Part shown: positions 2,160 to 62,622 of the stretch, piece after piece
How positions within the stretch are numbered: position 1 is the stretch's first letter
How the letters are laid out: the number at the start of each line of letters is the position of its first letter
Assembly: GCF_000760515.2 (NCBI RefSeq)
Contig: NW_013546289.1
Coordinates: 1 to 64,000 of the forward strand
Length of the DNA: 64,000 nt
Direction of reading: 5' to 3'
Source: Mitosporidium daphniae
Lineage: Eukaryota > Microsporidia
Position numbers and translations under genes: made by a program
The notes under the pieces: model-generated
What the model saw: only the letters and a program-made list of their open reading frames with translations
Told to the model about the DNA's origin: nothing
The model's database searches: none

Positions 2160-5100
2160 CTAAATGTCGCCAGAAATTTGTTTTTGAGCACTTTCCAGTA
2201 TCAGTGTATTGATTAGTGACCGCTCTGCCTCTTTGGCAGATATGTTTTCCAAGGTAGACACCACCAATGGCTCAGAAGACGGGATGTTGAGCGATTTCAA
2301 AACAGACTTTCCCGAGCTTGTACCCTTCTTTTTGGAGAGCACCGTAAATGAGACTTCATTTCTGTTACTAGAGGACGGAAGTTGTGTGGGTTTTGAAATT
2401 ATCACAGGGACAGCCAATTCCCGTAGCGATTGCTGTTGAGGAAATTTCGAATATGAGGATACACCCAACGAGCTTCCTCCGATGACAGCCATATTTACCT
2501 GCGGGCCCTCATTAGCTGAAGCCGAGCAAGAGATCATGTTCTGGTATTCAGCCTCAAAAGAATCTTCTTGGCCTTCATCAGACAAATCCTGCTTGGATTC
2601 GTCGACATCGAATGGAAGCTCATTGTCAATTAGTTTGTTCGTGTAGTTCTTAGAAGGCCTTTCAGATAAAGGGGGACTCATCAGCGATGGCTTTACAAAG
2701 ATCGATATATCTCTTCCAATGGAATGAAAATAGCTGTGCAGTTCTTCCAGCACCTCGATTTTTGTAAAATTCAGCTCGGGGTCATCAGAAACGGGATACT
2801 CCTATCAGGGAAATCAATGCCAAATTACCGATATTGCTAATATTGTCTTTTCAACGACCAAAAGTAGCGAAGAGTCCTTCTCAAAGCTGTAGCGTGGAAT
2901 CAGCTTCAATGGCCCCGACTCAACACACGACTTTAAAAGAGCACATGTGATGCGCTGAAGAAAGCCTGAAGTATTGGGGTTGATGTGCAATAAAAAGGCG
3001 AATGTTTCGCTTGAAATTAGGCAAGAGCGGAGCAACCACCCAACCAGCATCGCTTGAGAGAGGATGTTTTGATGCCTTGGGATGCAAACAAAATCGCCCT
3101 CAATACCACTCCGCAGCGTTTCGATAAGGGAGTCCAGTACGCTCTTAACGATTTGAGGCTGGTATTTGGAGAATCTTTGCAGCGTGCAGGCAACCATTGG
3201 AAGAGAATCAAAACAGAAAGAAGAGGTCTTGTGCACAATCAATTCGACAAAAAGCGTGCAAAACTATGGAGTTAATAAATCATTTGGACAAGTAAACAGA
3301 GGAAGGAATAAAAGGCGATTCATTCTTACCGCTGCATCAGACCATGGACACTTTCTAAGCTTTCCAATTACAAAGTCAACCACACAAGAAGGCTTCCTGT
3401 TTGCAATGGAAAGACACTTTGTGAAAAGATGCAATAGGAACAGGTTGATCGGATTTACCGGAGGCAAGGTTGGTGGATGGGGCCGTAGCTCCAAAGGAAT
3501 CGATTGGTAAACTGCAGACTCGATCAGAGGCAGCAATGGATGGTCCTTGGATACTTTTTTCTTGTATCCATCAAGAATGGTAACCAAATGCTGAAGACGA
3601 TCCCGAGTTTCAAGGGATCGGTAAAGAAACTGGCCGATATTTTCCAAAAAAGCACATGCTGCAGAAAGTCTAATATCAGAGAGGCCAGAAACATCTTCTG
3701 CCAACAGAACTCGCAAGCAAGAGATTGGAAGTGAAACTGGAGCCAAAGAAAATTTACAGAGCTCCGCAATGAGGCGTAAAAGGCCCATCCAGGCACCCAA
3801 TAGTCTTCGACGGCTAGCAGGGGTAGGACCTTGCCCGGAAACCAAGCTTTGCCTTCGAAGCGTCTTGAATTCCAACTCGATTGACGGGATCAAAGAAGTG
3901 GATACCAATCCAGGACAATAAGGATACATTCTGGCCAAGAGCCGACACAAATAAGAAAGGGAGTCTGGAGACTTTTTACAAGACTCCATTACTTCTTGGA
4001 TTAGTCGACGTCGAGCAGCCTTTGAATTTATTAGGCAAAAGTCGGCACAAAGCTTATCGGCCTCATTTAGAGAAGACACTCGGGATAGCTTTTCAAAAAA
4101 CGAAATATACTGGGCATGGGAATGCAACCCAGAATGGTTTGAATCCTCCAGAATTGATGAAATACCGGTCTCCGATACGATAATCGAATCGGAAAAGTCG
4201 GCTTTGGTGTCAGAAGTGTCATCCAATCTGTTTTCATCCATCTCGAAAATCGAGGGAAGCGGTGTTGAGGTTCCTGATTTGAGCAAGGAAAGATTGTACA
4301 ACACACCGGCAGGCACGTGCAACTTCAAATCTGGGATTTGCTTATAAAATTTCATTTCCTCTTCGCTCCCGTATGGAGAGTAAATGGAAACCGTTGAAGA
4401 TGCATCTATAAGAAGACTGCAATCCAATTCCGGAAGCGATTGAGGCGAAAGAAGCGGGACCAGCTGGCCCGTTTCAAGCCTTGTGGTCAATTGGGAGGAA
4501 TTTTCCTCCAGTGTCGGAACGATGATGGTGTTGAAAAGCTCTGAAAACGAGCAAAGGGAAGACATGATGCCAGCGAGCGCTGTACTGGTCCTGGAATGCT
4601 TTTCGAGCTGATAGTTTGACAGATCTCCTTTAGAGATAAAGTATTCATGCTGCGAGAGCTCCAATCTTTTCAAAAACGCATGTGTTTTGCACGCATAGTC
4701 GGAGAGGGCGGGAATGTATGATTTTGTGAGAATCTCGTACAATTCCCATTTCGAAGCCTCCGTGGTAAACGCTGTGAACCCAGAATCGCACGTAGACGAA
4801 GATGATGGCAAAACATTTCGTATCGGGTACAACACCAAAGGGTAGCTTTTAGAAAGATTTTCCACGACACACAAATAGGGAAAGTTGTACTTTCTTTGAG
4901 CTAAATCGAATCCAATCTAAAGATTAGAAAAATAACTTGCAATTGATTTGAAAAATGACAGGGCCAAATGCATGTCTGGAAACACTCCGGAAACTGCAAG
5001 CTCCAACGCAAATCGGGCAAACTGGCGTTGTACATAAATCTTCTTGGAAAGCTCTTCCTGATCAAGACCGCTATTTTTTTCAGGAAGAGCCAACATGGCA

Positions 5101-5492: not shown

Positions 5493-5505
5493 AGGCAAAA
5501 ATTAA

Positions 5506-5877
5506 TTAGTAAATTATTCCACATTTGAATTTACAATTAACATTCGGGCCATCCAAGCACACATTTCCGAGGGAGGCGCAGAGGCCCCCTCTCGGTGCCT
5601 GTTGTCGGAAAGCTTTTCGCTTTTGGACGGGGATTTTGAATCTCTAAAGGCGTCCATTCATGCCTGCAAAGCTAGCCTGAACTCGTTCATGTCAGAAAGG
5701 TTAAAAACCAAAAAGGAGCATCCCGAAATTTTTATTAGCAACAAGGCACCAAAATTGGGCATCGAACTTGACATGCCCCAGTCTACAGATCAATCTTGCA
5801 CGGCGCCCATTTTCACGCAGAATAGTAGCGAAGAAACCCGAGAAGCACGGCCGCACCAGATAGAAAAAAGCCTATAA
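5506..5877 (+). CDS. Unrecognised short open frame, start not found
   Basis: An uninterrupted plus-strand frame runs from just after a TAA at 5503 to TAA 5875-5877, about 120 codons. Its codon use and mixed hydrophilic composition look coding (for example the segment SLLDGDFESLKASIHACKAS). It lies in the 320-bp gap between UPF2 and the FMP32-like gene, and its last 65 bp overlap the 3' end of the latter on the other strand. No ATG precedes the main body: the first in-frame Met is internal, near 5690. A spliced 5' exon, or a chance open frame, are both possible. No domain is recognised. Confidence 0.3.
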   Translation, partial: LVNYSTFEFTINIRAIQAHISEGGAEAPSRCLLSESFSLLDGDFESLKASIHACKASLNSFMSERLKTKKEHPEIFISNKAPKLGIELDMPQSTDQSCTAPIFTQNSSEETREARPHQIEKSL

Positions 5878-6406
5878 CTCAATAAACAATCGATACCGGT
5901 GAGCGAATAGAAAAGTTCATGCCTTAGCTTCTCCGTTGCTGCAAAGCCGTTCGAAGTTTCGGTGTCAATCTTGGAGTGCACATCCTGATAGTTTAATTGC
6001 GCACCCAAAAAAGCATCCCGCATTCTGCCCTTTTCTAGTGTCATTTCAAGCCTGCCTTCGGAACGAAGAGATAAAAGCTTTTCCCGGATCTTTTGCTTGC
6101 CGCTGTTCAAGTCTTTAGAAAGCTGCTCCTGAGCAAGCAGAGCAGAAAAGGTTTCTCTTGCCTGGCTTTGTTGCACATCGGCCTTCAGCTGTGTAAGATC
6201 TATCCTATGAAGGAAGATGTACGACTCGTAATCTGCCTTTGTAATGGCACACGAGGTTTGGGAAGCGATTCTATCTCAATTAAAAGCAAGCGATACTTGT
6301 CATGTAAGATTTGGTTTAAAGTCGCTGCTATAGCCTTGCTTTGTGAGGGCTTGAGGCTAATCTTGTTCTGGAGCTCTTTACAAAATAGAAATGAATCAAA
6401 ATGCAT
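5813..6406 (-). CDS. FMP32/MCUR1 (DUF1640) mitochondrial coiled-coil protein
   Basis: Three exons, about 182 residues. A 20-nt intron (GTGTGC...GGCAG, near 6190-6225) and a 25-nt intron (GTATCG...TTATAG, just before the last exon) restore one frame. The N-terminus has FDSFLFCKELQ, then a short helical pair, matching the DUF1640 start (F-D-T-H-x-F-V-K-x-L-E). A long Gln/Glu/Lys-rich coiled coil follows. The C-terminus is a single membrane helix (GFFLSGAAVLLGFLRYY) after KIDTETSNGF, which is the family's layout. Members (yeast Fmp32, animal MCUR1/CCDC90B) are inner-membrane proteins linked to cytochrome oxidase assembly or calcium-uniporter scaffolding. The ATG at 6406 is the only one in frame. 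It lies 71 bp from the divergent gene if that starts at 6478. Confidence 0.7.
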
Positions 6407-6477: not shown

Positions 6478-7207
6478 ATGAGTGATGAGGAGCTTTCAAG
6501 GTTAAAAGAGGTAGAAGAGGATGAGCAAAAGTACCCCCGACTTACCATTGATCTATGTACCATTTTAGGGCTTGGATGATATATGGCAAAAAGGTTGGCG
6601 AAATCGAGTCTTTGAACTCGTATAAATTGCACTTGGAAGTTCGCCTAAAGCGACTGGCCAAATATTTGAGCAGTCCCCCAACGGTGCTTTCAGATTATTT
6701 GTCAATCGCCGATCTCCTTAAAATTATCGATAAAAGCGCAAATCCGACAAAATATTGTGCCGAAATTTTGGGGTGCTTGATGCTTGCAACTTATTTATTG
6801 GCTAAAAAGGTCAATTTTACGTTTTCCAGGTCATCTTTGGCATTGATAACACGCTCAGATTTAAGCTGATGCCGATGGGAGGCCGTTCTCAAATCCACAA
6901 TCTGACCGAGTCCAAGAAATCCTTGAATTTATACCCGCATCCGGACTTTTTTGTGCAAAATGCTGAAAACACGGACAAAGAATTTCATTTAGCCGTTGTA
7001 GCATTTTTCGAATGCTTGGTAGAATTGACAAGCTTTATATCACCCAGAGGTAGCGTATTTCCCCATAAGATAGACAATGATGCTTGCATTTATCAGTGCA
7101 AAAATTACATGAGTGAAGTTCCGCCAGTTGAACAACGAACAGAATGGATGGGCTCGCTGTGCTTGTTGATGAAAAGGATTCTTCTATCCCTTGTAACAGA
7201 CAAATAG
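6478..7207 (+). CDS. Hypothetical protein, about 223 aa
   Basis: Not recognised. Three frames join through a 38-nt intron (GTACCC...TTTTAG, about 6531-6568) and an apparent 20-nt intron (GTCAAT...TCCAG) just before GTCATC. The spliced length is then a whole number of codons. The protein begins MSDEELSRLKEVEEDEQK, is largely helical and soluble, and has a middle segment reading DYLSIADLLKIIDKSANP. An upstream in-frame ATG at 6391 would overlap the start of the minus-strand FMP32-like gene, so 6478 is preferred. Its stop is 7 bp from the stop of the convergent exchanger gene. Confidence 0.55.
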
Positions 7208-7214
7208 CCAAGCG

Positions 7215-10388: not shown

Positions 10389-13062
10389 ATGAGTCTCCCA
10401 CTATCGTTTACCATTGGCGTTTGTGCCCTCGATAAAAAGTCCAGATCGGTTCCAATGAGAAACATTCTCGATAGATTAATTGGAAACTCTCCTAATAGTT
10501 TTTTTGAAACAATCATTTTCGGAGACAAAGTGATCTTGGAAGAGCCTATAGAGAGATGGCCTATTTGCGATTTTCTAATCGGATTTTACTCCACAGGATT
10601 TCCCTTGGCCAAGGCAATATCCTATATCCGCCTTAGAAAGCCCTTCTGCGTGAATGACCTTCAAATGCAATGGCTTTTGCTTGACAGAAGACTGGTGCTA
10701 TTGGCTTTGGATTTCATCGATATCTTGACTCCAAAGCGTCTTATTGTAAGCAGAGATGAGGGGCCAGAACTTCCAAATTCTATATCTCGAAAGGTTCTTA
10801 GGGCTTTCTGATTGCATAGATAGGCAGGGACTTTGGCATTGACTTTTTGGAGAGGCTCCATCGTCCATCCTATTGTGCCCATCTTTCCGATAGCGATACG
10901 CTACATGTCGGCATGGAGGAATTAAAAAAGCCATTTGTTGAAAAGCCTGTTTCGGGCGATGATCACAATATTTATATCTACTATTCCGGGGGTGGCGTCA
11001 GAAGGCTTTTTCGCAAAGTCGCAAACAAGTCAAGTGAATACGATCCGGCAGGATCAGAAATTCGCCTCAACGGCTCATACATTTACGAAGAGTTCTTAAC
11101 GGCCGATAAATTTGAGGACATCAAGGTGCATTTTTTGCTCATTTGGCCTAGGTTTACACTGTTGGTCCCTATTTTGCGTACGCAGAAACCAGAAAGTCGC
11201 CCACGGTCGATGGTGTCGTTCGTCGAAATGCGTCCGGAAAAGAATTGAGGGAAGAAACCACTCTAACCTCTACGGAGCAGGAAATTGCCCGGAGAATCTG
11301 CATGGCCTTTGGACAAACCATTTGTGGGTTTGACATGGTCCGAGTTGATGGGCGCTCATATGTGATCGATGTTAACGGGTGGTCATTTGTAAAGGGATCC
11401 TCTTATTATTATGATACATGCGCCTCAATATTAACACACACATTTATGAAGGCAGCAGCGGCCCTTCCCTTGAAATATCCATCAATTCATGAGCGTTCCT
11501 TGTCCAACCGTCCATCTTCTCCAATATCGAGGTCCTGGAGGCTAAAGACATACATCAGCTGCATCAGGCATGCCGATAGAACGCCCAAACAAAAACTGAA
11601 GTTTACCCTACCCGGAAATGATCTTTTCAAAACTTTTGAAAAAGCGAGATCAGAGCTGTACACTTATCAGCAGATAATTTTGCGAGAGCCTTCAGACCTA
11701 AAAAGACTGCATGTTTTCATTTCTGAAATGATTGTATCGATAACCAGTCAGGGCTCCCATGCACAACTCGAACCTCTTCTTTCTCAGCTTCGACCACTGC
11801 AAAGTCTAATAGAAGTCAGATCGGGGCACGCCGACACGAAAGTGCAGATTCGACTTCTTTCAGATTCGCTATCATTGCTGGTGGTTAAATGGGGCGGTGA
11901 ATTTACACATGCTGGTTGGCACCAGGCTCAAGAGTTTGGAGAATCTCTTCGAGCCGATCTGAAAATATTGAACAAGTCTCTTCTTGCCGATATTAGGATT
12001 TTTAGTTCTGAAGAACGTCGAGTCAAGGCCACGGCGACGATTACCGCAAAGGCGCTTTTACATCTTGCTAAATTGCCCTCTGGGCTTATAACTAACTCCC
12101 CAGACTTATTAGACGACAATTTGGAAGCAAAGGACGAAATGGAGTCCGTAAAGGCATCTATTAGTCAATATCTAAATGAAGCCTTCCAAAACGACCTTGA
12201 AACGACAAATTCATATGCCGGCGATCTGGCCAGGGACCCTTTGTCGTTTATTTCTCGATTAACCGCCCTTTTAAGCATTCATTATGTAAAATTCCTCGAC
12301 ACTTCGGTGACCGATTTCACTGGTCACAAATGGTGCTGTCTAGATTCGAGTATTTTGTGGAAGGAACGTTGGTTGAAAATATTTAAAGATGTGCTTCCGT
12401 TGAACTCTCCAAGCCTCCAGAATGTTCTTCCTCTCCAAAAAGAGCCTGGTCGAATTTGTGAGCTTTATGATTCTTTAAAATATGATGAAATTCACAATCG
12501 TGCCTTTTTAGATTATTTTTTTCTTGGTGCATCCCCAAGCTCTGGTTTGAAAGACTCCCTGCATGAGCTGTTTATTAGGACAAAAACGCTATACAATTGG
12601 GTCTCCATTTCTGAATATGGAATTTTACCCAGTGAAAAGCTATCTATTGGGAAAAAAATCATCAGAAAACTGTTGTTAAGGCTTGTTGAAGATTTGAGAG
12701 AAAGTACATCCCATTCAACGGCTCCCTCTTGCCGTCTATATTTTACCAAGGAATCACATATGTATCCCCTGTTAAATGTAATCCAATATGGTGGATTAAG
12801 CGCGTGGACTTCAAAGCCATATAATCAATGGGAATTGGACTACCTCTCTCAAATCACATTTGAGATCTATGAACGGTATCCCTCAGATGAGATATATGGG
12901 ATTCAAGCGGAACATTCTGTGAGAATAAGCTTAAGCCAAGGGGGATACAATCCGTCTATAATAGACGTCAATCTAGATGAAAAGCACTGCCTTAGTGTAG
13001 TTCCTCGTGAATGGATCACCGAGTATTTTCCCTTAGATAAGGCAATAGAAGCTCTTCAATAG
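10389..13062 (+). CDS. VIP1: VIP1/PPIP5K inositol hexakisphosphate and diphosphoinositol-pentakisphosphate kinase
   Basis: Three exons, about 873 residues. Two 26-nt introns (10794-10819 and 11126-11151) fall inside conserved sequence; the second splits DIK from VYTVGP exactly where the family has D-V-K-V-Y-T-V-G-P. The N-terminal ATP-grasp kinase domain shows IGVCALDKKSRSVPMRN, RKPFCVNDL, KPFVEKPVSGDDHN and SYVIDVNGWSFVK. The C-terminal phosphatase-like domain begins at ISCIRHADRTPKQKLK (RHxDRTPK motif). The enzyme makes the 1-pyrophosphate of inositol pyrophosphates (1-IP7, IP8) in the cytosol. These act in phosphate sensing, polarised growth and the cytoskeleton. The protein is shorter than animal enzymes and ends soon after the phosphatase domain. 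Confidence 0.95.
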
Positions 13063-13984: not shown

Positions 13985-16415
13985 TTATTTGATAGGATCA
14001 GTATTTTTTTGAGGTAGTTCTAACAACCACTTTTCAAAAGTAGAAAATACATTTTCAATGTGTGACTTTACATTAATACACTGTTCCAGCGTAGAAAAAA
14101 CCTCCCTTGCACAGTTTTCTTTTTCTTCAAGGCAAGATGCCACTAAATGGTCAAACTCAAGTGTGAATTTTTGAAGTAACTGTTGTGAGGCGAGGTATCC
14201 TCTGGCGGTTTCGCTTCTCATTTTGAGAAGCTCGCCCTCCAAATGGTCTATCTCAGCGGAAAGTGTGACGTTTTCATTGGAATACTGACTTTTTGAGTTG
14301 TTGTATTCCATTTCTGTTTTTCGAATTCTATCTTTTTAGAAATGTAAAAGCTACCTTTCCTCCATGCGCACCAGTTCATCTTGGCGGTCGGCTATGGTAT
14401 CTTTTAATGCAGAAATGGCCTCAGACTTTGTTGACAAGTGATTACTGATCGTTTGAAGCGAAGATAGCATTGAATCTTGAAGTGCGTATATAACAGGAAC
14501 TACCCCTTGTTTCAGATCCAAAGTGATGGGCGATTTGCTCAACATAGCCGCGGCCTTAGACCCACCTTCCAAGTGGTAATCTTTGCCATGGGCGTGCTTG
14601 GCATCTTTGGGAATAAGATGCAATCTCTCAGCTTTGCCATTATATTCGGATATAAGGAGATCTAGCCGTTAAAGTATCCCGCATACCAAGCTGATCAAGC
14701 CGGGAATTATTTTCCTTTTCTCTAAATGCCACTAGCCTAGTCCATTCGGACCTAGATGCCTTCAGTAAAGACAGCGTTTTTAATTGGTTTTCATTTTCGG
14801 CCTGCAATTTATCTGCTTCCGCTGGGGATATCTTTTGTGTTGAAACTAGGCGCTCCAGATTTGATTTGGACTCCAATGCAGCAATCTTTTCCGCCTCTAT
14901 TTTAAAACATAACGAGTGGTAACAAATACCTGTGCTTGATATTAGAGCCTGCACGTGAAGGATCCCAGAATGAAGCTTTTGTGCCTTTGAATCAAGATGC
15001 TTTTGAAACTTTCTAAATTTGTCGATGTCGTGTAATAGCATTGTGCGTTCTTTCTCAAGAACTACCAAGGCAGACTACAGATATTATAGGCAAATATCAT
15101 ACCTCTCGATCTTCCAACTGTTGAATTTCTCTTTCCAAACAAACAATTTCAGAGTGTAAAATTTCAGTCTCTTTATCCACGGAAGAAGTTTTCAGCAAAA
15201 AGTGGCTAGAGAGTTCAGTTTGCAACAACTCATAATTTTCATCTCCTGAAAGAAAAAGGCGATAGGCCGAAGAAAGATATGAAAAGTTGGATCCAATATT
15301 GATTTTGTTTCCGTTCAGCGAATCTATAGCCATATCTGCTACCAACATTGAGGGGTCGTTCGATTGAGCACCCGATACCTGCAGTTGGTCACAGCACAGG
15401 ATCAAATCTACGAGCCATTGTAGCATTGCGAGAAGGCTGGGCCATGCATGCATAGATCCGACTGCGTAAAGATGGCTTTTACTGATATCATTTGCGAAAG
15501 GATATCTAAAAAAAGTCAATTTCCTTACCTTAAGCTCTTCAATAAAACCGGGACTTCTTCTTCAAATTTCTTATCAGACGTCCAAATGAAAGTAGGGTCC
15601 AATTGAGCATATAAAAATTTAAATATCGAAGCAAAATCCTTTGCAGATGGAGAAGAAAGCAGCTTTGGAGACAGAGGTCGGTCATATCCGCACTCGGACA
15701 AAAATTTTATGAGAGATTTGATGCAGGAGAATTGAAAGTTTTTCTCCCTAAGGGGCCGCGGATCCTTACCTGGGGGAGGACCCATTAGTCCCGTTGACGA
15801 AACTTGCGATAAGCCAGTTGGAAGGGCTGCTGTTCCGCTTAGAGATACTCGATTTGATCCTTGTTGTCCAATAGCAACAGACGCTCTTCGCATCGAATGG
15901 CTCGAAGACATTAGTGGATTGGCATTTGAATTGGCAATAGAATTCGCAAGAGAGAGCCGTCCAATATTTGAGCCAACCGCGATAGAGGAAGCGGTCGCAT
16001 TTTTTCCATCGTTTTCTTTTCTTAGAGAAAGCTGACTTAAATCAGAAGCAACACAATCGGGGAAATGGTCTCGATAAGGAGACGAGGTGGATGATATCAG
16101 CTGCTGTGGTGATGGCGATCTAATCACATCAGATCGTCCAATGGGCGAAGGTGTTGGTCGAGTAGCAGCATTCCCCAAGCTGGGCCGTGAACGATCAGAA
16201 TAAAACTCATCCACGGTCCTATCGTTTTCATTGCTGGCGATTCGCAGCAAAGCACATGGCGTTGCTCGAAAAGCTTCTGGAGGCTGGATATTATGCATCT
16301 GCTTTGGTGTGAAAGTTGGGGAGGAGAGAAGAGGCGGGGGCCGCTTGCTACCAAGAGAAACGCCACCATCCGAAGAAAAGGGATTAGACGAGCACGCAGC
16401 CGACTTGGAATTCAT
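13985..16415 (-). CDS. NDC80: NDC80/HEC1 kinetochore protein
   Basis: Five exons, about 775 residues. Introns: 15506-15528 (23 nt), then about 28, 25 and 27 nt. The first lies inside the invariant SLRYPF motif, so the splice is certain. The N-terminal 220 residues are Ser/Pro/Arg-rich and disordered (the microtubule-binding, Aurora-regulated tail). They are followed by the calponin-homology head (RPLREKNFQFSCIKSLIKFL, GYDRPLSPKLLSSPSAKDF, FEEEVPVLLKSLR). Several hundred residues of coiled coil follow, including the LHLIPKDAKHAHGKDY stretch seen before the family's C-terminal coil. NDC80 pairs with NUF2 and binds spindle microtubules at the outer kinetochore. The start ATG is at 16415; the divergent VTI1 begins 72 bp away. 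Confidence 0.95.
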
Positions 16416-16487: not shown

Positions 16488-17253
16488 ATGGATGTCTATG
16501 GCAGTTTGAGGGATGAACTTTCCAAACTTTTACTTTCGCTGGAAAAGACCTCATCCCCAAACTTGCAGGCTCTCAAAGAGGCAAAGAATATTGTATGCTT
16601 TCATTTTCCTAACGTAGCTCCAACAAATGCACGCTGAGGCCTCCTCCCTCACGTTTCCACAAGGCATTCGACTTCGTTGCCAGGACGAAATGTCGACTTT
16701 TCAAAACAGAATCCAGAATTTGGAAACGGTAGCAACTTTTTTCCTTTTCATCATATAGGGTCTCCTTAAGAATAACAAAAACCCATTTTTCTTGCAAGAA
16801 ATGGAGGAGGGCACTCTATATGGGTTTACAGATCAGATTTCGTCCTCGTCGGCACGGGACGCCTTGTTAAGTGGGGCAAGAGAGAAATATTCTCCCCATC
16901 CGCTGAGCTCTTCAGTGTTTGATGAGCATAGCGTTCGTCTTGAAGACTCCTGCAGGAAGGCTGGCGATATCGAAAGAATGGGACACTCCATATTGGACTC
17001 TCTGCGAAAGCAGCGAGAGCAACTGGAGCACATCAATTTTAGCGTAACCCATGTAGCAATACAATTTTTAGCTTGGAGCAGCAGAGATGCATGTGACTAC
17101 AAGTAAGAGGGTAGTTGGCCGAATGATCAGAAAGTACATTTTCGTACGTTCTTTCCATGTAGAATCAAAACAGACAAAGCCTTACGGCTTCTGCTGATAT
17201 CTGGCCTAGCGCTTTTGCTCATCGTTGTGGTGCTGATAAGGTTAAGGCACTGA
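16488..17253 (+). CDS. VTI1: VTI1-type Qb-SNARE
   Basis: Five exons, about 217 residues, with introns 16593-16617 (25 nt), 16729-16758 (30), 17044-17071 (28) and 17134-17162 (29). The N-terminal three-helix part has LKEAKNILQQMHAEASSL, like the Vti1 Habc domain. The SNARE helix reads ERMGHSILDSLRKQREQLEH. A C-terminal anchor follows (LLLISGLALLLIVVVLI). The zero-layer Gln expected for a Q-SNARE lies in RKQREQ. Vti1 works in Golgi-endosome and vacuole fusion. A Bos1/membrin assignment was considered because of RDALLSG, but the N-terminal domain and the KRVVGRMIRK junction fit Vti1 better. It shares a 72-bp divergent promoter with NDC80. Confidence 0.8.
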
Positions 17254-17304: not shown

Positions 17305-18356
17305 TCACTCTTCCTTTTGTCCCACAAGGTTCCTTTGCATCCAGGCCGTGACTTGGTCGTAGACCACAAGCAAAATGCCACCACCGGGGCCAAGACGCAA
17401 CACCTTTGGAGTGTAGCCTTTATAAAGGGCTGAGATTCCCTCTTCCGCGGCAACAGACCGCAATGCTGGAAGGGTCCATGAATACTTCGGATCGAGAGCT
17501 CCAGGCTTTTGGGCCTGTATACGCGACTTTATTACATCAAATGGGATGTTGATGGTGGTCGCAATAAAGCCCCCAATTGTTCCTGCGATCAAACTATTCA
17601 ATGTCGCTTGCTGATCGGTCTATGGCATCAGTAAAAATTTCACGTCAAACCTTTGCTTCGGGCATCGAATTTTTGAGCGTCGTAATCATCCCAAAATAAG
17701 CACCATTCCAAACGGAATGGCGCCATATTGTCGCTTCAATTCCTCGAAAGAACCCACGTGCACCTATTAACATCAACGCAAAAACAATAACCTAAGTAAA
17801 TTAAAACGAGCTATAAAAGGAACCCTCCACTGCAAATATCTTTTTCACGACATCAAAGGTGTTGCGATATAGACCGGCATTGGACTTGTCTTGCATCTGG
17901 ATCTTGACAAGCTCAAATGAGACAATCATGGTGGCCTCCAAAATTCCCGATGAAACACCAGTAGCAACAGAGAGCATTCGAGACTTTTCCCATCCAAAGG
18001 CATCCTTGTAGGCCCTGCCAAAAAACTCATTGGCCCCGAATTTAGTTGCTCGTTTTGGAGCTTCCACAAGAACAGGAGCGAGAATTCCTCGATATAAAGA
18101 TCCGAACCCTTCGTTGCGAATCATTTTTTTAAAGGTACCCAGAATCGAAGAGTAAGAATCGGGTCCGGCTGCACCGCTACCCACTTGCAATTGGAAGCGC
18201 GTCTTGACGACTATTATTAAATGGAAAATGAGTACCATCTAGCGGATACATTACCAGGATTTCGGTGACCCCAGCTATGCCTCCGGCAGCAAATTGTAGC
18301 GGGGCTGGGAGAGGCGGTAGCACCGCTCGCTGCTGGACATTGGCGGAGCTCGTCAT
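17305..18356 (-). CDS. ODC1: Mitochondrial 2-oxodicarboxylate carrier (SLC25A21/ODC type)
   Basis: Four exons, about 311 residues, the usual length of a mitochondrial carrier. Introns: 18211-18235 (25 nt), about 60 nt and 31 nt. The first splits the invariant PLDVVKTR signature, fixing the splice. Three carrier repeats are visible: EILVMYPLDVVKTRFQLQ, then SFELVKIQMQ, and INIPFDVIKSRIQAQ. The last repeat ends YKGYTPKVLRLGPGGGILL, which together with EAPKRATKFGANEFF is characteristic of the 2-oxoadipate/2-oxoglutarate subgroup. It exchanges 2-oxodicarboxylates across the inner mitochondrial membrane for lysine and tryptophan catabolism or lysine synthesis. Start ATG at 18356. Confidence 0.9.
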
Positions 18357-18631: not shown

Positions 18632-19770
18632 TCACGACTGCACACTGGGATGCACAAGTCTTTCCGAAAATGCTTTTAGGGCAGCTGGACCGCGGACCTC
18701 AGAGTTAAGCAGGGGCAGCTGGACAATATGGAAATCCTCATAGAGCTCTATAATTTGGTCCAGATATTTTTTCTGGATCTTTCTGCGGGCCATGCACATG
18801 TCACAAGACGAGCTCGATGCTAAATCGGTCAAAAATGCAACAAACTACCATTGGAAGAAGTGGAGGGCGGTACCAGTTGATTTACGATTATGTTGTGTGT
18901 ATCGATTCCAAAAACGGCAAGTTCCTGCACCATTCTTTCTGTCTCGTAGAGAGACAGAAACTCGGCAATGCAGACGCACACAAATGTCGTTTTGGTGGCA
19001 TCTTTGAACTGAGCATTGACTTCATCGGTTATTGTTCGCAATTCTGCAATCTTTGAGAAAATCGTAGTTGGGTTAAATGATCCTGCTGCAGATGATCCCA
19101 GACCAAGTAGTCCCGACATCTGCTGGATCATTGGCCCAAAACGGGTGTGAAGATCGGATAACTTTGCAAAGGCTTTGGACATGATCGATGGGAAGGACAA
19201 GAAGCGGAGCGTGTGCCCCGTAGGCGCGGTATCAAACACAACTGTTGAATATTCCATTGATTTGACGAGCCTAAAAGTAAGAAAGAATCCATGAAACGGT
19301 ACTTCATGATCTCTGCAAATCCCATGGCCTCGTCAACTCCAGGGATTGATGTTCCGATTTCATTCATGATTCCCTTAAAAGACGGGAGCTCTTCTCGCTC
19401 ATCTTCGGCATTGCTGACGGACGATGAAAACTCTACAGAAAGCTCTTCAAATGTGGCAGCCGGGTCTATTTCCTTGGAAAAGTAAAAAAAGATAACCCAA
19501 CCATTGCAAACAGATTTTCAAACCCGGATATTGCTGTCGGGGTTCTTCCGAATTTCTGGCCAAACGCATCGGAAAGGTTGTGAGCGGGATCCGTAGATAT
19601 CAGCAACACGTTCTTTCTGAACTTGCTCAACTGGATAGCAAGAGAGCAGCTATTCAAAATTGAATTTTGCGCATGTACCTTGTGGTAGTTTTTCCCACGC
19701 CACCTTTGCCCCCCACGAAAATCCATTTCAGCGACTGCTGTTGAAGAATGTTATCCAAGGTCCCCTCCAT
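18632..19770 (-). CDS. GET3: GET3/ASNA1 tail-anchored protein targeting ATPase
   Basis: Five exons, about 339 residues, matching the family. Introns of 29 nt (19650-19678), 29, 32 and 29 nt are all confirmed by conserved flanks. The P-loop is [16 protein letters not shown], with the switch I region [14 protein letters not shown] and switch [15 protein letters not shown]. The zinc-binding CxxC of the homodimer is CDMC, followed by [22 protein letters not shown] near the end is also conserved. GET3 captures the C-terminal membrane anchors of newly made proteins (including SNAREs such as VTI1) and delivers them to GET1/GET2 at the ER. Start ATG at 19770. Confidence 0.95.
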
Positions 19771-20146
19771 CAAAGACAAATTAAGTTTAAAATTACAGCT
19801 GGGATTGCAATTTATTTAGCCACGCAAAAATTATTTGGGAGTACATTTGAAGTAACTTTGTCAAGGAGGCGATACAAACATTTCAAAAAAGAGCCACGCG
19901 CCACTGCCAGATAGCGCGAGACCATCAGAAAGCTTGGTAAATTGGTATTTTTGCGATGACCGCCTTTTGTGATGCGATATTTTCCAGCCCTGTAAAAAGT
20001 TTAAAAATGATCGTTCAAAAAAAGCAACCGAAATGAAAGAACAGCCCACTTATCGGAGTGATTTGTTTTTTGGATGATCTACTTTAGTGATTGATATCAA
20101 AATTTCCGTCAACATAGCATATATTGATTGGCACTGAAGAATTCTG

Positions 20147-46476: not shown

Positions 46477-47216
46477 ATGGACAATATCGACTTCACTGCA
46501 AAGGACTTGTCCGAAAAAAAGAAAGCCCCCGTGACGATGAAGTCTATACTCTTGTACATTCCCAACATCATTGGTATCTACATCTGACTCACATCTAGGG
46601 CTGCTGCGCGTCGTATTTGCTCTGTTCTCAATCCTGCTGATGGCCACTGGCCAACATTGCGGCGCAATGATTCTGTACTTTATTTCCGCAATACTCGATG
46701 CATTTGATGGCATGACTGCACGTTATTTCAACCAATGCTCACAGTTTGGTGCTGCCCTGGATATGGTGACAGACCGGTCTGCGACAATGATGCTGCTTTG
46801 CGCACTTTGCCGTCTCTATCCCGCAATGATGATGCCCATCTTCCAGTTTATTCTTTCGCTGGACCTTTCCTCGCACTATGTTCATATGCTTAGGTAAAGA
46901 GTGTGTTTACAGCTTTAGTTCTACCAAGAGCGGCTCGGCATCGCACAAGACCGTAGCCGAGAATAGCCCTATACTCCTGAGAGTATACTACACTAAAAGG
47001 TGGGTTTTATTTATCGTCTGCGCTATGAACGAGCTTTTCCTTGCATCACTTTATGTGTGGGCAGTATATCCGCATTCATGGGTCCCCAAAGTGGCGCTCG
47101 CCCTCAGCAGTCCCGTCTTTCTTTTCAAGCAAATTGTGCACGTCATCCAGCTAGTAGAGGCGTTCCAAGTTCTTCTGCACTTTGACGTCGCAGATGCTAC
47201 CAAAGCAAATAAATAA
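46477..47216 (+). CDS. PIS1: Phosphatidylinositol synthase
   Basis: Three exons, about 229 residues. Introns: 25 nt near 46575-46599, and 46894-46918 (25 nt; a 19-nt version ending at CAG 46912 also keeps the frame). The CDP-alcohol phosphotransferase motif is intact: DGMTARYFNQCSQFGAALDM followed by VTDR, giving D-G-x2-A-R-x8-G-x3-D-x3-D. Four to five membrane helices follow, with the conserved DLSSHYVHML segment. The enzyme makes phosphatidylinositol from CDP-diacylglycerol and inositol at the ER; this lipid feeds the inositol-phosphate pathway of which VIP1 is a late step. Start ATG at 46477. Confidence 0.94.
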
Positions 47217-49718: not shown

Positions 49719-51308
49719 TTAATTTCTGTTTTTGCGCGAGCCTTTTTTTGAGGCGATTTTCAAAACCTCGGAGTTTAGTCCGCCTCCGAACATCGTGGCA
49801 ATGGCAGACGCACTCAACTTGGCAACCGCTTTGGACTCCTTTTCGTTCTTAGCTCGCTCTTTTTCCAAGACTTCAAGTTTACTTTTAACGGTGTCCACAT
49901 CATTCATAATTGAAAAGAGCTCGTCTTTGACCTCTTGTTCGCGTTTATGCAGAGCCTGAATCTCTTTTTCAAATCTAACATTGATGGCATTTTTGAAAAG
50001 CGAGGCGTTCTTCATTTGGTCTATTTTAAGCTTTTCCTCGAGCTTTGAGCTTCGCTCGGATAGCTCTTCATTCTGCTTTCTCAGCTTCATTAGATCTCCC
50101 CTATGAGATAGTGATAGGTCTAATATTGTACTTTTTGGGCGGGCTGGTAGGCTTCTTTGAAAGGATGTCGGCGCGATATATTTCATAAAGGATGGTGGCT
50201 TTTCTTCTGAGCTCTTCGCTATGATCCGAAATAAGAACTTGCTTGAATTTCAGGAAGTCATAGTACTCATCAGACTCGATATTGATTTTCCCCCACGGAT
50301 ATTCCCTGCACTTCAAAGGCGCAGATTGGGGCGACCCATTGTTGTGCTGCAGAAGTGCTCCAATAACGGCAAATGGAATTGAGCTCTACGCATCATTTAG
50401 GATTGGCTTGTTCATTACCTTTAATCGCTTCACCTCTTCTTGCACAAAATCTTCATCTCTGTCGTCGACAGTTGGATAGAAAAGCTGAATTCCAAATCTA
50501 GAAATGTCCTTCAATATCTTTCAATTATGCCATCAAGTGCTTACCCTTCCTTTTAAAAGAGACAGCTCGCGCAATGTAAGGATTTCTGCTCGGCCAATGA
50601 CTGGAATTAAATTTATCACTTTGTCCAGCTTTGACATTGCCAGGATGTCGATTTTCCTCAGACTTTCAAGTAAACGTTGCCGTGGGTTACCTTGTCCTCC
50701 ATGGTGGGAGAAGATAGATGCACGCGTGATATCTGCTATCCACAATCTCACCTCGGAAGCGGCGGAAAATGTCGCTTTCTGCACTGCAATATTCCTCTAA
50801 TCCTTTGTGGACTCTTTGGATTATCCTTGGCAGCCTAGAAATAACGAAAAAGTCCGTACATATCTACATTGTCCACTTGATCCCCGAAGCCATCAACCAC
50901 AGTGATGTTCATGGTCATGGAGAGCTCAAACTCCTCAATACCTTCATTAAAAAAATTCAAGTACTTTTTGAATATTCCGTAAATTTCAAGCAAGCGGCTC
51001 GCTCTTCTTCGTGGCACCCGATAGCCTCTTTTTGATGTTCAGAGGGCTCGTGTGCTATTTTCGTGTTGACATCTGCTTCTGATAGCGAAAAAAGAGATTT
51101 CAACAGTGTGACCTTTCCAACACCAGCCTCACCTTATCAATAAGAAAAAAATTCTCCTACCAACCACTAGGATGTTCAGGACAAAGCCGGAGAGCGAGTA
51201 TTGGCGATGAAGCTGATTTGCATAGGAGGAAAACCCGACCCAAGATGAAGAGTCTCCAAGAATGGTCTTTGATGTAAGAAAATAATCCCCCACCTCCTCA
51301 TTAGACAT
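49719..51308 (-). CDS. Septin with degenerate GTP-binding motifs
   Basis: Multi-exon. Septin landmarks: WVGFSSYANQLHRQYSLSGF (polybasic/N-terminal), the P-loop GEAGVGKVTLLKSL, IDILAMSKLDKVINLIPVIG, and YPWGKINIESDEYYDFLKFK then LRRKATILYEIYR (septin unique element). A C-terminal coiled coil of about 110 residues follows (KLRKQNEELSERSSKLEEKL). Introns are 23-31 nt where resolved; one uses an AAG acceptor. The P-loop Ser/Thr is Val (GKV), the G3 DTPGFGD is reduced to VDGFGD, and the G4 A-K-A-D is G-R-A-E, so GTP binding is probably lost or altered. Septins form membrane-associated filaments. The start ATG at 51308 (MSNEEVGDYFL) is likely, but extra 5' exons are possible. Confidence 0.85.
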
Positions 51309-55806: not shown

Positions 55807-55986
55807 GCTGATTTCAAGATAATTAAAGACTTCTATTGGTGTAATAGCTATAAGGTGCAAAATAAAAATTGCATTAACCACCAATCATCGCCTGCTGGCT
55901 TCTAAAAAAATATTCGGAAAAAATCTGTTTACAAATTTATTCTAGAATGTGAAGAGGAGGATATTTGTATTCTATGCCGGCCAGGT

Positions 55987-57378: not shown

Positions 57379-60300
57379 ATGCAAACCAGCAACAAGTATC
57401 CACTTCCGATTCACTTCCAAGAGCATGTCAATGTATAGCCGATTTTCTCATTTTAGCTGCAATCGCTAGGATTTCTGCCCACGGACATTGGCTTTAGCAC
57501 ACTGACAATGGAGTCAGAAAAGTATCTTTGCATTAGAGATCCTTCCGGAACATCTCTATCGATCATAGAAATCGCAAATCCAAATAATATCTTGAAGCAC
57601 GCCATCACCGCAGACTCTGCCATCATGCACCCCATAGAGCTGATCATAGCGTTGAAATGTATTTTTGGATTTTAATATTCCGGCATAGCTGGCCGACAGC
57701 TCCAGATTTTCAACCTTGAATTCAAGGTCAAAATTAAGGCATACGTTATGGATGAAGACATCATATTCTGGAAATGGGTGAACCCGTCTTACATCGGCAT
57801 TATTACCGCCAAATGTGTATACCATTGGCATATTGAAGGGACTGGCGGGCCAAAGAAGATCTTTGATAGACATTCTTCGCTGGAAAACTGTCAAATTATC
57901 AACTATAAGTGTAATTCCGATCTTTCTTGGTGTTTTCTGGTCGGCATTTACGCCAAAGATCAAGGCGTTGGCGGAACCATTCAACTATTTTCGCAATCAA
58001 AGTCGGCCAGCCAAATTATCGATGGGCATGCGGCAGCCTTTGCCGATTTGCTGATGAAATCGGAGTATTCAACGTACACGGTAAAGCTGTTTTGCTTTGC
58101 ATCGAGGGCTTCGACGTCCCTTTCCAAGGTAATGACTGCAGCTCCAATATCTCTAGCTACACATTGTGCAAATAGACCATACAGACGCATATCCTGCATT
58201 CCAAAAGGTTTCGTCCGACATTTTCTTCCCAACCGATGCTCCTGGTGATTTTCCAGTTGCGCTACAAATTGGGCATCGGTTTGACATCATCTACATGATC
58301 ACCAAGCTGGGCTTTATTCATCTGTATGATCTGCAATCTGGCGCTTGCATTTTTATGAATCGAGTGTCAACGGATACCATTTTTGTGACCACCGAGTATA
58401 CCCCGGACTCGGGCATTATAGGAGTTAATAGATCGGGACAGGTAATTGGCCGATCAGTTGATCTGTTAACATTAGGTCTTGTCGGTGTCAATATCGGAGG
58501 AAAACATCATCCAACATCTTGTCGAGGTGGTGCAAAATCCCAAGCTTGCCATTAAGCTTGCTTTGAAGGGCAATTTCCCCGGTGCTGAACAGCTCATTTT
58601 TACCGAATTCCATGCGCTCGTTGAAAAGGGCAAAATGTTGGAGGCAGTCACGCTTGCAGCCCGCTCGCCCAATGTATTTTGACCGTGTTTAATGGGTAGC
58701 AAATGCTTAGAACCCCGCAAACAGTAGAGCTATTGAAGGGCTATTTTGCGCCTGCTGGGCAGTTGGCGCCGTTGCTGCAGTATTTTGCGATTATTTTGGA
58801 AAATGATCGCCTAACGGAGTATGAAACCATTGAGCTCTCAACTTTGCTGATTTCGCAAAGCAAAAACGAATTGCTCAAAAAATGGTTTGAAGAGGACAAG
58901 CTTACTTGCTCCCAGGAGTTTGGGGACATCCTGCAGCCGATATATCCTCGATTTGCGGCAGAAGTGTACAAAAAAAGCAGATGCCATTCCAAGGTGCTCG
59001 AATCGTACATGATCATTGGCCTATATGCGGATGCCATTGAGTATGCAAAGCTCCACAAGCTCAAGCCAGACTATGAATATTTGCTAAACATTGCCATCAA
59101 AAGCAATGCGCCTGAAAGCACGTCGCTTTCCAAAATGCTGCTGTCAAGCAACCCGCCTCTGCTGACGATCGGAACTGTTTTTGCTTGCTATTGTGAAGGT
59201 GGATATATTGACGAGCTCTATGTGGCGATGAGGGAAATTCTGCAAACCAACACACCGGAATGCGGGGCCCATCAAACTAGGCTTCTTGAAATCCTTTTTG
59301 ACTACAACGTAAATATTGCTGCAGATGTGCTTTCAAAGCACATTTTTACCGCTTACGACAAGGATCGAGTGGCTCAGCTGTGTGAAAACAATCACATGAT
59401 CATGCTTGCTTTGGAAAATTATACCTCCATAGAGGACATCAAACGGCTGATAGTGCGAACAGACGTTTTGGATTTCAAGTTCATCAGCTTTTTCTTTTCA
59501 AAGCTTTCCGTATCGAAGGCTTTGGAGTGTCTTGCTGCTTTGTTGAAAAGCGACATTTCAAAAAATCTGCGCATCTGCATCGAGGTAGCTAGCAATCGCA
59601 TCGCTGATATCAAGCCGTCCTCTTTTGTTCTGATTCTTGAATCGTTTGATTGCGACGAAGGTTTGTTTGTTTGTTTGGTTGACTGCATCTATTTTAGGCA
59701 TATTTCTGTATTTGCAGCGCGTGATCAACGGCATCAGCGATCCTGAAATCCATGCTCTATATTTTAAACTGCTGATAAGATATGCTTCTGTGGATGATAT
59801 TGCATCGTTTGCCAATGTGGTAAATGTGGCAAACCCGATTGTTTATTGCCAACAAATGGCGGAAAAATTTACGCAATATCAAGAGCAGCAACCACTGCTG
59901 ATCATATGCAGCAAATATGGATTGGAAGAGTTCTTTTTTGACTTCATCCTAAAGATGGGGTATCACGACCTTTCTGTTGAATATGTAAAATACAATCCGC
60001 ATACGCTGCCTTCCGTGATTGCCTTCATTTTGGACCGGTATGAGGGCGATCAAGATACCCTCGTCGGTGTTCTGTTGAGCGACTTTACCTCTTTTTTGAG
60101 CAACGATGAAGTCTTTGAGCTTGTGGAGCTTTTGCAAAAGCACGACAAACTATATCTGCTGATCCCCTGGATTCAGTCAACATTGATGGACAATTCGCAC
60201 AAATACGACAAAACACTGCTGGCAAATGCCGTTGCCAAGTCGCTTCCGATGTCGTCCGATGAGCTGGTTGCTTTTCTGAAGCAAAACCCGTATTATGACA

Positions 60301-62622
60301 GGAGATTGGTTGGCAAGTTTTTCCAGGCAAAAAACAACCCCCGCTTGGCCTCCATCTGCTACTCTACGGCAGAGCTAGCCGATGAGCTGATGGAGCTGTC
60401 GCTGGAAACTCTTCAGTACGGCGAATTGATCCCTTTTCTGCTGAAAATGAAAGATGCCACAAAGTGGGGCCATTTTTTATCAAATGCATCCTTCAATAAG
60501 GAGGAGTTCTTGGCCAAGGTTTGCACTTTTGCTTTTACCTTCAGATCAAGCTGTGTGCAAAGACTTCCAAAGATGCCGATTCATTTGCCATTCTCATCAA
60601 GGTGTTGATCATCTCCAAAAAGACCTCCATCCTTCTTCCTGTGTTGGAAGTACTGGTGCTGGAAAACGAGCATTTTTCGAAGAACAAAAATTTGCAAACC
60701 CTTTTCATGGTCACTTTGGCAAAGGTTTTGCATTTTCCTCTTTCTCCCTCCATCGTAGGTCAATGATGCTCGCTTTGACGATTTTATTAAGAAATTGAAG
60801 GCGTACGACTCCAAAGAGGTTGCCGATGCTGCAATCAAGGAGGGCCTGTATGAGCAGGCATACCTTATCCACAAGGCCGCAGGAAACTTGAAAGAGGCTG
60901 CAGAAATTCTAATCAAAAACATGAATGACCTCGACAAGGCCACCGAGTTTGCAGATAAGTACCGTGTTCCTTTTATTTACCAACTTTTGGCCAATGAACA
61001 ATTTTCTAACCACCTTATAAAAGAAAGTATTAGCAGCTTTATAAAGGCCGACGACTTTTCCAAATATGCCCAAGTCGTTCCCAAGGCCAAAGAGGCTGGA
61101 TGCCTTGAAAGCCTGGTTTCTTACATCGAGCTGGCCAGGGTCAAATACAAGGAGCAATTTCTGGATACCGAGCTTTTGTATTGCCTTGCGTTTTTGGAAA
61201 AGTTTTCAAAGCTTCAGGCTTTTCTGTCTGCTCCCCACAAAGCACGCGTAAGTTTCGGTGGTGATGGGCCCTAACCCTTAGACGGAACACATTGGAGCGC
61301 TTTGTTTGCAAAGCAATTTGTTCAAATCGGCCGCGTACATTTTCACGTCAACGTCTGACGTGGAAAATCTGTCGCTGGCATTGTTTCTGGATCAAGATTA
61401 TGCCGGCTGTTTGAAGGCGCTTTCAACGTCCACAACAAACAAAAGCCACGCAAAAATCTTTTCAATGGCCCTCGACAAAGGGTTGTTTGATTTCTCGTGT
61501 GATCTTGTTTGCATAGTGGTGTTGAAATCGCCGCACTCGCTCCAATCGGTTGAAGCCCTGTGCCAGGAGTATGAGAAAAGAGGCCTTGTCACGGAACTGG
61601 TGTCGATGCTTGAAAAACTGCTCGCTTCGGCTGCTCAACACTCGGCAAAGAAAACGCTAACCTCGATGTTGTGTCTTGTCAAGCTCAAATATTACCCAGA
61701 CACGTTCTTGGATTGTTTGCAAAGCTCCAGTTCGGCATGCGTTGACTTTTCTTGGCTCACCGAGAAGATTGTGGCTGTTTTCCCGGATGCCGTTTGTGTT
61801 TATCAGAAAATCGGCCTGTTTTTCTGGTCCAACACCCCTTCCAAGGCGTTGGAGTATGTGTTCAAGTATCCCGCTGTGCTGTCCATACATGATGACCTGC
61901 TTAAAACAACATATCCAAGGTGTGTGCGCCAGCTCGCTTCTGACGACGACATGATGGAAAGAACGTTTTTGTTGCATCTTTCGCTTTTTCCGCGAGACGT
62001 GTTTCGCTTTTTCAAGGAAATCCCGCTCTCCCAAAACAGCATTCAGAAGATCTTTGCAAAGATAAATTCGTCCAACCAGCTATCGATGGCACCGTGCTTT
62101 GAGCTCGTTCAGCACTATCATGAGCGCTATGATGTTGAATCGATTAACAGCATATTCCACGACATGTGTCTCAAAAGGTGCGACTACAAGTCCATTGAAA
62201 GCTCCATCAACTCAAAGTCAAACTTCAACAAACAAGCCTTGCTCGACACACTCGCCAGCATTTCTACCACGGAGTGCACGTTTTTGTCCGGGTGTCTTTA
62301 CCTTAAAATGGGGCTGCATGCCAAGGCTTTTGAAACCTTTGATCACATCCACTGCACTTCTGCCATCCTTTTATCGCTCAAGGCTTCCAGGTGCACCGAG
62401 CTTGTGCTTCAAGCGCTCGAGGTTTTCCATAAAAGAAATCACATCTCGACTTTTACTTTAACTCTGTTCCATTGCTTTGATTTCACTCCCTTCCATTCGC
62501 TGCTATCTCTGATCTGGCTGAACGCATCGTACTCTCAAGCCTTTCTTGATGCCTCTTTCCCGCTGATCATTGCGAAAACACATGAACTGGAGTGCCATTT
62601 AAATAAACAAAGTACTAACTAG
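57379..62622 (+). CDS. CHC1: Clathrin heavy chain
   Basis: Ten exons, about 1656 residues, nine introns (24 nt at 57433-57456, then 30, 28, 34, 26, about 37, 26, 34 and 34 nt) leaving a whole number of codons. The N-terminal propeller shows PIHFQEHVN-LQSLGFLPTDI, IGFSTLTMESEKYLCIR, FWKWVNPSYIGIIT and FDRHSSLENCQIINY. The linker and leg have GFIHLYDLQSGACIFMNRVS, GIIGVNRSGQ and SEENIIQHLVEVVQNPKLAI. The repeats include LAARSPN, then MLRTPQTVELLKGYFA, and later FIKADDFSKYAQVVPKAKEA. The chain forms triskelions that coat vesicles at the plasma membrane and Golgi. The intron ending ...CCCTAACCCTTAG near 61278 carries a telobox. Start ATG 57379, stop 62622. Confidence 0.97.

Follow-up and report, generated by a model that had tools for sequence, protein, structure and literature searches.

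Mitosporidium daphniae is an early-branching microsporidian and a parasite of water fleas, placed in Microsporidia by NCBI taxonomy. The DNA analysed here comprises positions 1 to 64,000 of its contig NW_013546289.1 (hereafter the window, whose positions serve as coordinates), in which genes for clathrin heavy chain, GET3, GPN3, an Xaa-Pro aminopeptidase, a septin, and other proteins are interrupted by introns a few tens of nucleotides (nt) long. A gene finder placed 97 GT-AG introns in 45 gene models across the window; of these introns, 90 were 22 to 38 nt long, with a mode at 25 to 26 nt, and all 90 lay within positions 280 to 61281. They are very probably major-class (U2-type) spliceosomal introns that have shrunk to near the minimum and that a canonical major spliceosome would remove, helped by their size. 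GC content averaged 0.43 over the sixteen 4-kb bins of the window, and the published genome is described as 5.64 Mb in 612 scaffolds with 43% GC (PMC5701793).

The finder was a semi-Markov model that learned from long open frames and assumed a flat prior of 15 to 160 nt on intron length. In the window, intron ends were fixed as GT and AG, two flanking positions were given a slight starting preference, and the final run used cheaper gene starts and a 110-nt intron limit. The original prediction had proposed more than 70 introns, mostly of 23 to 34 nt, between positions 2802 and 62622, where the model holds 88 short introns, 84 of them in that length range. Five introns that it had named, in NDC80, ODC1, RAD23, the clathrin gene CHC1, and VIP1 (Table 1), run from GT to AG in the coding direction and were reproduced base for base by the model, which had not been given them; the comparison by coordinate covered these five. 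The longest had been put at about 92 nt, and the E2F/DP gene holds one of 92 nt.

Homology across the intron junctions

Solved structures and Pfam served as references for the spliced models. Alignments ran across the model junctions of GET3 (E=2e-121, 4 junctions), GPN3 (E=1.5e-76, 5 junctions), Xaa-Pro aminopeptidase 1 (E=1e-142, 7 junctions), and the septin (E=2.6e-46, 6 junctions). Clathrin heavy chain aligned over residues 9 to 1627 (E=3e-282), with 9 model junctions in range; this structure alignment was viewed to about residue 1010, and the last two junctions lie only within the matched range. Pfam domains covered 14 more junctions: one each in NDC80, VIP1, ODC1, ATG6, the v-SNARE, and NAT10, and two each in RAD23, PIS1, DP, and the CCDC90-like gene. 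In total, homology could test 45 of the 90 short introns and supported 44, two of them with shifted ends; one was contradicted, and one further intron had been missed. The other 45 were placed by the gene model only.

Protein and profile spans were equal across introns in the RAD23 ubiquitin-like domain, the RAD23 XPC-binding domain, the DP domain, and the SNARE domain, and once the 24-nt RAD23 intron at 40252-40275 was taken out, the alignment to ubiquitin had no gap there. It is highly unlikely that such segments stay in the messenger RNA (mRNA) as translated inserts or are passed by programmed frameshifts or ribosomal bypassing. Five of the 90 have a length divisible by three and contain no stop, and one of these, the 27-nt model intron 42041-42067, was rejected since it indeed codes for residues matching human XPNPEP1; however, retention of the other 85 would disrupt the reading frame or introduce a stop, retention in RAD23 would insert eight residues into the gap-free ubiquitin fold, and the segment at 43236-43265 must be removed for XPNPEP1 to align. 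Splicing signals and a full set of small nuclear RNAs (snRNAs), described below, also argue against retention. With 42041-42067 dropped and 43236-43265 added, the alignment to human XPNPEP1 closed and its score rose from 480 to 525 bits.

Stopless introns divisible by three have homology support at 40252-40275 and 43236-43265, and three candidates come from the model alone (14897-14929, 26585-26614, and 30012-30038); retention of any of the five would add residues silently. Lengths divisible by three occurred in 90 of 303 introns, but the finder is biased against stopless introns of such length, and neither a deficit nor a sign of surveillance was concluded from the count. The shifted ends concern clathrin 59661-59697, where the mean phmmer score over seven homologues was 968.0 versus 961.1 for the ends chosen by the finder, and GET3 18820-18848, with 438.1 versus 434.3 over eleven homologues. 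A further intron in GET3, 19389-19418, is suggested by the profile but is doubtful. Two longer introns, of 60 nt and 92 nt, have homology support, the E2F_TDP stretch across the latter being 11 residues longer than the profile; several other long introns in the models look like modelling artefacts. The 60-nt ODC1 intron (17764-17823) can be parsed as introns of 32 and 28 nt back to back, with an internal AG/GT at the seam, and may be spliced stepwise; that long introns are tandem pairs is speculation.

Chance controls, splice signals, and the spliceosome

A wider survey covered 200 kb drawn from 20 other contigs, with no starting preference beyond GT and AG. The trained GT-AG model recorded 290 segments in 145 gene models (255 of 22 to 38 nt; score, 6866), whereas eleven mock dinucleotide pairs gave 182 to 251 segments, 40 to 154 of them of 22 to 38 nt, and scores of 6086 to 6394. 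The highest mock count in that length range, 154, belonged to CT-AC, the reverse complement of GT-AG. Ambiguous bases (N) occurred in 21 of the 290 introns, 12 of which crossed spacers between loci; among the 269 N-free introns, 251 were 22 to 38 nt long, the same short class as in the window. The density was about two introns per model (290 in 145; 269 without N), with at least one intron in 100 of the 145 models, which by extrapolation would correspond to roughly 6,000 introns in 4.66 Mb. At the level of sequence, the observation is confirmed, and as a class the recorded segments look like real introns rather than products of chance.

Short introns were present in all 20 of the other contigs sampled, at 1 to 27 each. 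This spread bears on two alternatives. Assembly or sequencing frameshift errors, which had been named as a possible refutation, are an extremely improbable source of the pattern: the assembly does contain some ambiguous bases (9 N in the 200 kb), but such errors should appear as one- or two-base insertions or deletions and not as GT-AG segments of 22 to 38 nt with a T-rich interior and a branch motif in 20 of 20 contigs. There is next to no chance that the introns are a local peculiarity of the window, a reading for which no supporting point was found and which is opposed by the N-free survey introns, by the 20 contigs, and by the model introns of 22 to 37 nt in the Mago, Y14, LSM8-like, and proteasome beta-like genes elsewhere in the genome.

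The intron ends were also placed blind by aligning the DNA to homologue profiles, with gaps of 15 to 120 nt (15 to 90 nt for clathrin) allowed in any phase at a constant penalty and all 256 pairs of end dinucleotides scored. The profiles comprised 114 of the 120 homologues listed for GET3 and, for the N-terminal half of clathrin, 50 of 115 of suitable length. GT-AG ranked first of 256 for GET3 (944.6; next, 927.3; median, 845) and for the clathrin N-terminal half (1504.2; next, 1477.2; median, 1336), and it also ranked first in the sum of these two placements and that of the clathrin middle (3091; next, 2980; median, 2767).

Composition by position was taken from a pool of 345 introns of 22 to 38 nt. 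Donor position +3 was A in 70%, with later positions nearly free; position -3 was T in 78%, and position -8 was A in 44%. In 324 introns, positions +3 to +6 carried 0.74, 0.17, 0.08, and 0.05 bit (about 1.0 in total) and position -3 carried 0.94 bit; T made up 39% of the introns versus 28% of the exons. The introns were 63% A+T, and CTAAC occurred in 9 of 345. Expectation-maximisation on 341 introns (eight runs; 60 rounds for the real set and 40 for shuffled sets) recovered the branch motif y-U-n-A-y-U; in 60% by weight the motif stopped 4 or 5 nt short of the end of the intron, so that 6 to 7 nt follow its A. The best of the eight runs had started from a random matrix. Its log-likelihood gain over background was 172.4, versus 28.7, 30.1, and 21.4 for three interior-shuffled sets.

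The machinery was sought in 4.66 Mb of genome on 147 contigs, a copy that seems to be without the shorter scaffolds, the contigs inspected all being >10 kb. U6, U2, U1, U5, and U4 each gave one match over the Rfam cut-off; U1 has ACUUACCUG at its 5' end, U2 has GUAGUA, and U6 has ACAGAGA. U12 snRNA gave no match in the genome, and the control genomes gave none either. PRP8 matched at 739 bits (contig C59, 75127-76359); the open frame that holds it has 2,419 codons and is uninterrupted, though 100 of the 145 survey models carry introns. Y14 matched human RBM8A at E=2e-29, with three introns of 31, 27, and 26 nt in its model, and in Mago one domain was split over two exons, matching at 122.6 and 62.4 bits, with an intron between them. 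The LSM8-like and proteasome beta-like genes, named by sequence reading, lie beside Mago (L046, 80-353 and 399-1409).

Proposed recognition of a 26-nt intron

The best-supported reading, that of spliceosomal introns close to the smallest possible size, draws on homologues aligned across 44 of 45 testable junctions, on blind GT-AG placement in two of three regions and in their sum, on the blindly recovered branch motif, and on the retention of all five major snRNAs and PRP8. In a 26-nt intron, the plan would comprise a weak 5' splice site (GTA, with hardly any consensus after it), a short spacer rich in U, a degenerate yUnAy branch site, and 4 to 5 nt ending in TAG. The A that the motif suggests as the branch point would be at about base 19 to 20, 6 to 7 nt from the end. 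With a six-base donor, the intron would be long enough for U1 or U6 to pair at one end and U2 at the other but would hold scarcely anything more; no separate polypyrimidine tract can be seen from the branch site to the AG. As U1 and U2 are canonical, pairing is probably ordinary. Because the sequence signals are weak, intron size and the tight branch-to-AG spacing most likely supply the remaining recognition (intron definition); intron definition with a size signal has been proposed for nucleomorph introns (as quoted in PMC5014332). We infer recognition by size and use of the exon-junction complex, whose pair Y14 and Mago is in the genome.

A spliceosome that relies solely on size and splice-site ends and does not truly recognise the branch site, or one that is strongly altered, is an unlikely alternative that would fit the weak motifs (about 1.0 bit at +3 to +6 and 0.94 bit at -3) and the lack of a confirmed SF1 or U2AF65 gene from the searches; however, yUnAy was recovered blind at near-fixed spacing, and U2 keeps GUAGUA.

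Several results weigh against the interpretation as shrunken U2-type introns handled by a canonical spliceosome. The case is made from genomic DNA, from which removal from mRNA is deduced. In the window, mock dinucleotide pairs also yielded 95 to 140 skipped segments, because real introns must be skipped somehow, and the segment count there was rejected as proof since mock pairs skip nearly as many; the GT-AG model scored 2240 versus 2019 to 2088 for mock pairs, and the length peak also favoured GT-AG. In the poorly conserved clathrin middle, GT-AG ranked only fifth (642.2 versus 649.9 for the best pair, TT-AA). Among the 45 testable junctions the finder produced one false intron and two with wrong ends, and it missed one real intron. 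In 303 introns, exonic GT..AG decoys of the same length range numbered 18.8 per intron, and site scores separated introns from decoys with an area under the curve of 0.961, 1.75 decoys per intron remaining at 90% sensitivity; these figures flatter the sites because the introns were picked with a similar model. The SF1-HH family (PF16275) gave no match in this or any other genome searched, a result that is without a positive control, and the U2AF large-subunit model gave only sub-cut-off matches in the genome. By sequence reading, a U2AF65 candidate on contig C78 resembled RBM39 and was rejected, as were the two best matches to the BBP KH family PF22675, a KHDC4-like protein and a multi-KH protein, neither of which was SF1-like.

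Table 1. Introns of the window with their positions, strand, and supporting evidence
Feature	Position	Strand	Evidence
Clathrin heavy chain, 24-nt intron	57433..57456	+	blind profile placement; clathrin alignment 9-1627
Clathrin heavy chain, 30-nt intron	57659..57688	+	clathrin alignment; blind placement
Clathrin heavy chain, 28-nt intron	58129..58156	+	clathrin alignment; blind placement
Clathrin heavy chain, 34-nt intron	58442..58475	+	clathrin alignment; blind placement
Clathrin heavy chain, 26-nt intron	58674..58699	+	clathrin alignment; blind placement
Clathrin heavy chain, 37-nt intron	59661..59697	+	profile placement; finder had 59673-59697 (25 nt)
Clathrin heavy chain, 26-nt intron	60519..60544	+	gene model; clathrin-middle placement
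Clathrin heavy chain, 34-nt intron	60725..60758	+	gene model; clathrin-middle placement; in matched range of structure alignment
Clathrin heavy chain, 34-nt intron	61248..61281	+	gene model; clathrin-middle placement; in matched range of structure alignment
GET3, 29-nt intron at P-loop	19650..19678	-	GET3 alignment; profile placement
GET3, 29-nt intron	19473..19501	-	GET3 alignment; profile placement
GET3, 32-nt intron	19271..19302	-	GET3 alignment; profile placement
GET3, 29-nt intron	18820..18848	-	profile placement; finder had 18845-18873
NDC80, 23-nt intron	15506..15528	-	Pfam Ndc80_HEC 216-336 spans residue 296
ODC1-like mitochondrial carrier, 25-nt intron	18211..18235	-	Mito_carr 80-172 spans residue 104
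ODC1, 60-nt intron	17764..17823	-	joining gives uninterrupted carrier-like reading; motif match by eye
RAD23 ubiquitin-like domain, 24-nt stopless intron	40252..40275	-	ubiquitin-like domain 4-74 to profile 1-71
RAD23 XPC-binding domain, 26-nt intron	39685..39710	-	179-234 to 1-56, equal spans
VIP1/PPIP5K, 26-nt intron	11126..11151	+	RimK 218-323 spans residue 238
GPN3, 30-nt intron	41396..41425	-	GPN3 alignment
GPN3, 25-nt intron	41180..41204	-	GPN3 alignment
GPN3, 26-nt intron	40827..40852	-	GPN3 alignment
GPN3, 33-nt intron	40673..40705	-	GPN3 alignment
GPN3, 24-nt intron	40520..40543	-	GPN3 alignment
Xaa-Pro aminopeptidase, 28-nt intron	41649..41676	+	XPNPEP1 alignment
Xaa-Pro aminopeptidase, 32-nt intron	42292..42323	+	XPNPEP1 alignment; beside alignment gap, exact ends less sure
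Xaa-Pro aminopeptidase, 26-nt intron	42498..42523	+	XPNPEP1 alignment
Xaa-Pro aminopeptidase, 26-nt intron	42632..42657	+	XPNPEP1 alignment
Xaa-Pro aminopeptidase, 28-nt intron	42900..42927	+	XPNPEP1 alignment
Xaa-Pro aminopeptidase, 30-nt stopless intron missed by finder	43236..43265	+	GT..TAG ends; removal closes 10-residue XPNPEP1 insertion
Xaa-Pro aminopeptidase, 31-nt intron	43397..43427	+	XPNPEP1 alignment; Peptidase_M24_C 556-618 spans residue 565
Septin, 28-nt intron	51133..51160	-	septin alignment
Septin, 23-nt intron	50942..50964	-	septin alignment
Septin, 25-nt intron	50835..50859	-	septin alignment
Septin, 28-nt intron	50663..50690	-	septin alignment
Septin, 27-nt intron	50518..50544	-	septin alignment
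Septin, 33-nt intron	50386..50418	-	septin alignment
DP transcription factor, 27-nt intron	32894..32920	-	DP 58-164 to 2-108, equal spans
DP transcription factor, 28-nt intron	32717..32744	-	Pfam DP domain span
E2F/DP gene, 92-nt intron, ends less sure	33131..33222	-	E2F_TDP residues 3-50 (profile 29-65) span residue 17
PIS1, 25-nt intron	46574..46598	+	CDP-OH_P_transf 27-136 spans residue 33
PIS1, 25-nt intron	46894..46918	+	CDP-OH_P_transf 27-136 spans residue 131
CCDC90-like, 26-nt intron	6271..6296	-	Pfam 3-177 to 1-174
CCDC90-like, 25-nt intron	5872..5896	-	Pfam domain span
ATG6, 29-nt intron	6830..6858	+	APG6 85-204 spans residue 105
v-SNARE, 28-nt intron	17044..17071	+	V-SNARE_C 129-188 to 6-65, equal spans
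NAT10/KRE33, 30-nt intron, ends less sure	36542..36571	-	TmcA_N 9-206 (178 profile positions) spans residue 128

Elsewhere in the window, positions 20001-24000 form the AT-richest 4-kb bin (GC, 0.351), with few and short gene models; a Pfam search with the model at 23898-24794 (298 residues) gave no match. The model at 51707-57168 joins EamA-type and ABC transporters, named by sequence reading, through an ISKDESSNE repeat run and probably represents two genes. By sequence reading as well, a 48-base tandem duplication at 13182-13277 lies at the start of a small membrane-protein-like gene, and an XRN1-like protein (27764-31057) contains three tandem copies of the nine-residue VEGKISTTG.

Relation to other short-intron systems

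In a GET3 tree, the window protein adjoined a database protein (support, 82/79) within a group of ten that included Paramicrosporidium (85/95); its branch was long, and it was in no fork passing both support marks. A clathrin tree was discarded for placement, the window branch reaching a length of 10, and the PRP8 homologue list was little informative on kinship, the partial query having left out full-length relatives of >2,296 amino acids. The literature search found no paper on M. daphniae intron lengths among those examined, the 2014 genome paper and the 2019 microsporidian-intron paper being outside it, so that a prior description is possible; one M. daphniae gene is described as intronless in the literature. 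The name "Mitosporidium" was attached to none of the 120 GET3 or 120 clathrin matches listed; if M. daphniae proteins are in that database, its published GET3 and clathrin models may be broken at ultrashort introns. More generally, a gene finder whose minimum intron length is set higher will fragment most of the genes that carry introns in this genome.

In M. daphniae, an early-branching microsporidian that retains about two introns per gene, the introns had already become tiny, and a compact genome combines many introns, weak motifs, and near-minimal length. This combination makes it possible to test directly, in an opisthokont, how a spliceosome locates a 25-nt intron. The findings are also relevant to whether introns in Microsporidia shrank before or after most of them were lost. 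It is an evenly balanced possibility that shortening came first in the microsporidian line, yielding introns of about 25 to 30 nt with tight branch-to-AG spacing, still at about two per gene, with degenerate signals and an essentially complete spliceosome, and that core microsporidia later lost most introns and hardened their motifs. If so, Mitosporidium would be the missing intermediate, with introns becoming short before the spliceosome was reduced and not afterwards.

Precedents for ultrashort introns as such exist in ciliates, in the nucleomorphs of chlorarachniophytes, in Trichomonas, and in core microsporidia. The nucleomorph is the relict algal nucleus of another lineage. Within the phylum, Encephalitozoon cuniculi is described as having 37 introns of 22 to 76 nt, with GT-AG ends and strict 5' and branch motifs (PMC3629993); the M. 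daphniae introns fall within this length range, share the GT-AG ends, and have a branch A near the AG. The original description of such introns as rare in fungi thus needs the qualifier that the organism is a microsporidian, and the difference from E. cuniculi is one of abundance and degenerate motifs, not of size as such. For Trachipleistophora hominis, 78 open reading frames with putative introns are reported in addition to a few ribosomal protein genes, and the search pattern used there, with the branch A by our reading 4 to 8 nt from the end, overlaps the 6 to 7 nt of M. daphniae (PMC3486916). Core microsporidia, which are reported to have lost over fifty core spliceosomal components, differ in having few introns with strict motifs, whereas M. 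daphniae has about two per model, degenerate signals, and five snRNAs over the Rfam cut-off. The pattern of few introns and strict motifs does not hold here: the survey has 290 introns in 145 models over 200 kb, about 1.0 bit at +3 to +6, and CTAAC in 9 of 345.

Ciliate introns (about 25 nt in Paramecium and Nyctotherus and 15 to 16 nt in Stentor) are described as similarly abundant, of a narrow length class, and with a weak branch consensus and an A at a near-fixed place, and Stentor has canonical U1 and U2 motifs (PMC5014332, PMC9505925). The ciliates are, however, an unrelated lineage; the spread in M. daphniae is wider (22 to 38 nt), and Stentor introns are given as 75.6% A+T versus 63% here. 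Lower limits of 23 and 18 nt are reported for the type B introns of Trichomonas vaginalis and the Bigelowiella nucleomorph introns, respectively (PMC12316389). Trichomonas differs in being intron poor, with 24 type B introns. Cryptococcus neoformans is likewise a fungus rich in short introns (mean, 56 nt), but introns of <40 nt are described there as a small, poorly spliced group (PMC11913375), whereas in M. daphniae they are the norm.

A link between intron number and signal strength is attributed to Irimia and Roy. Few introns usually go with strong motifs and many introns with weak ones, as described in PMC2483917, and by that rule M. daphniae behaves as an intron-rich species, though its introns are tiny.

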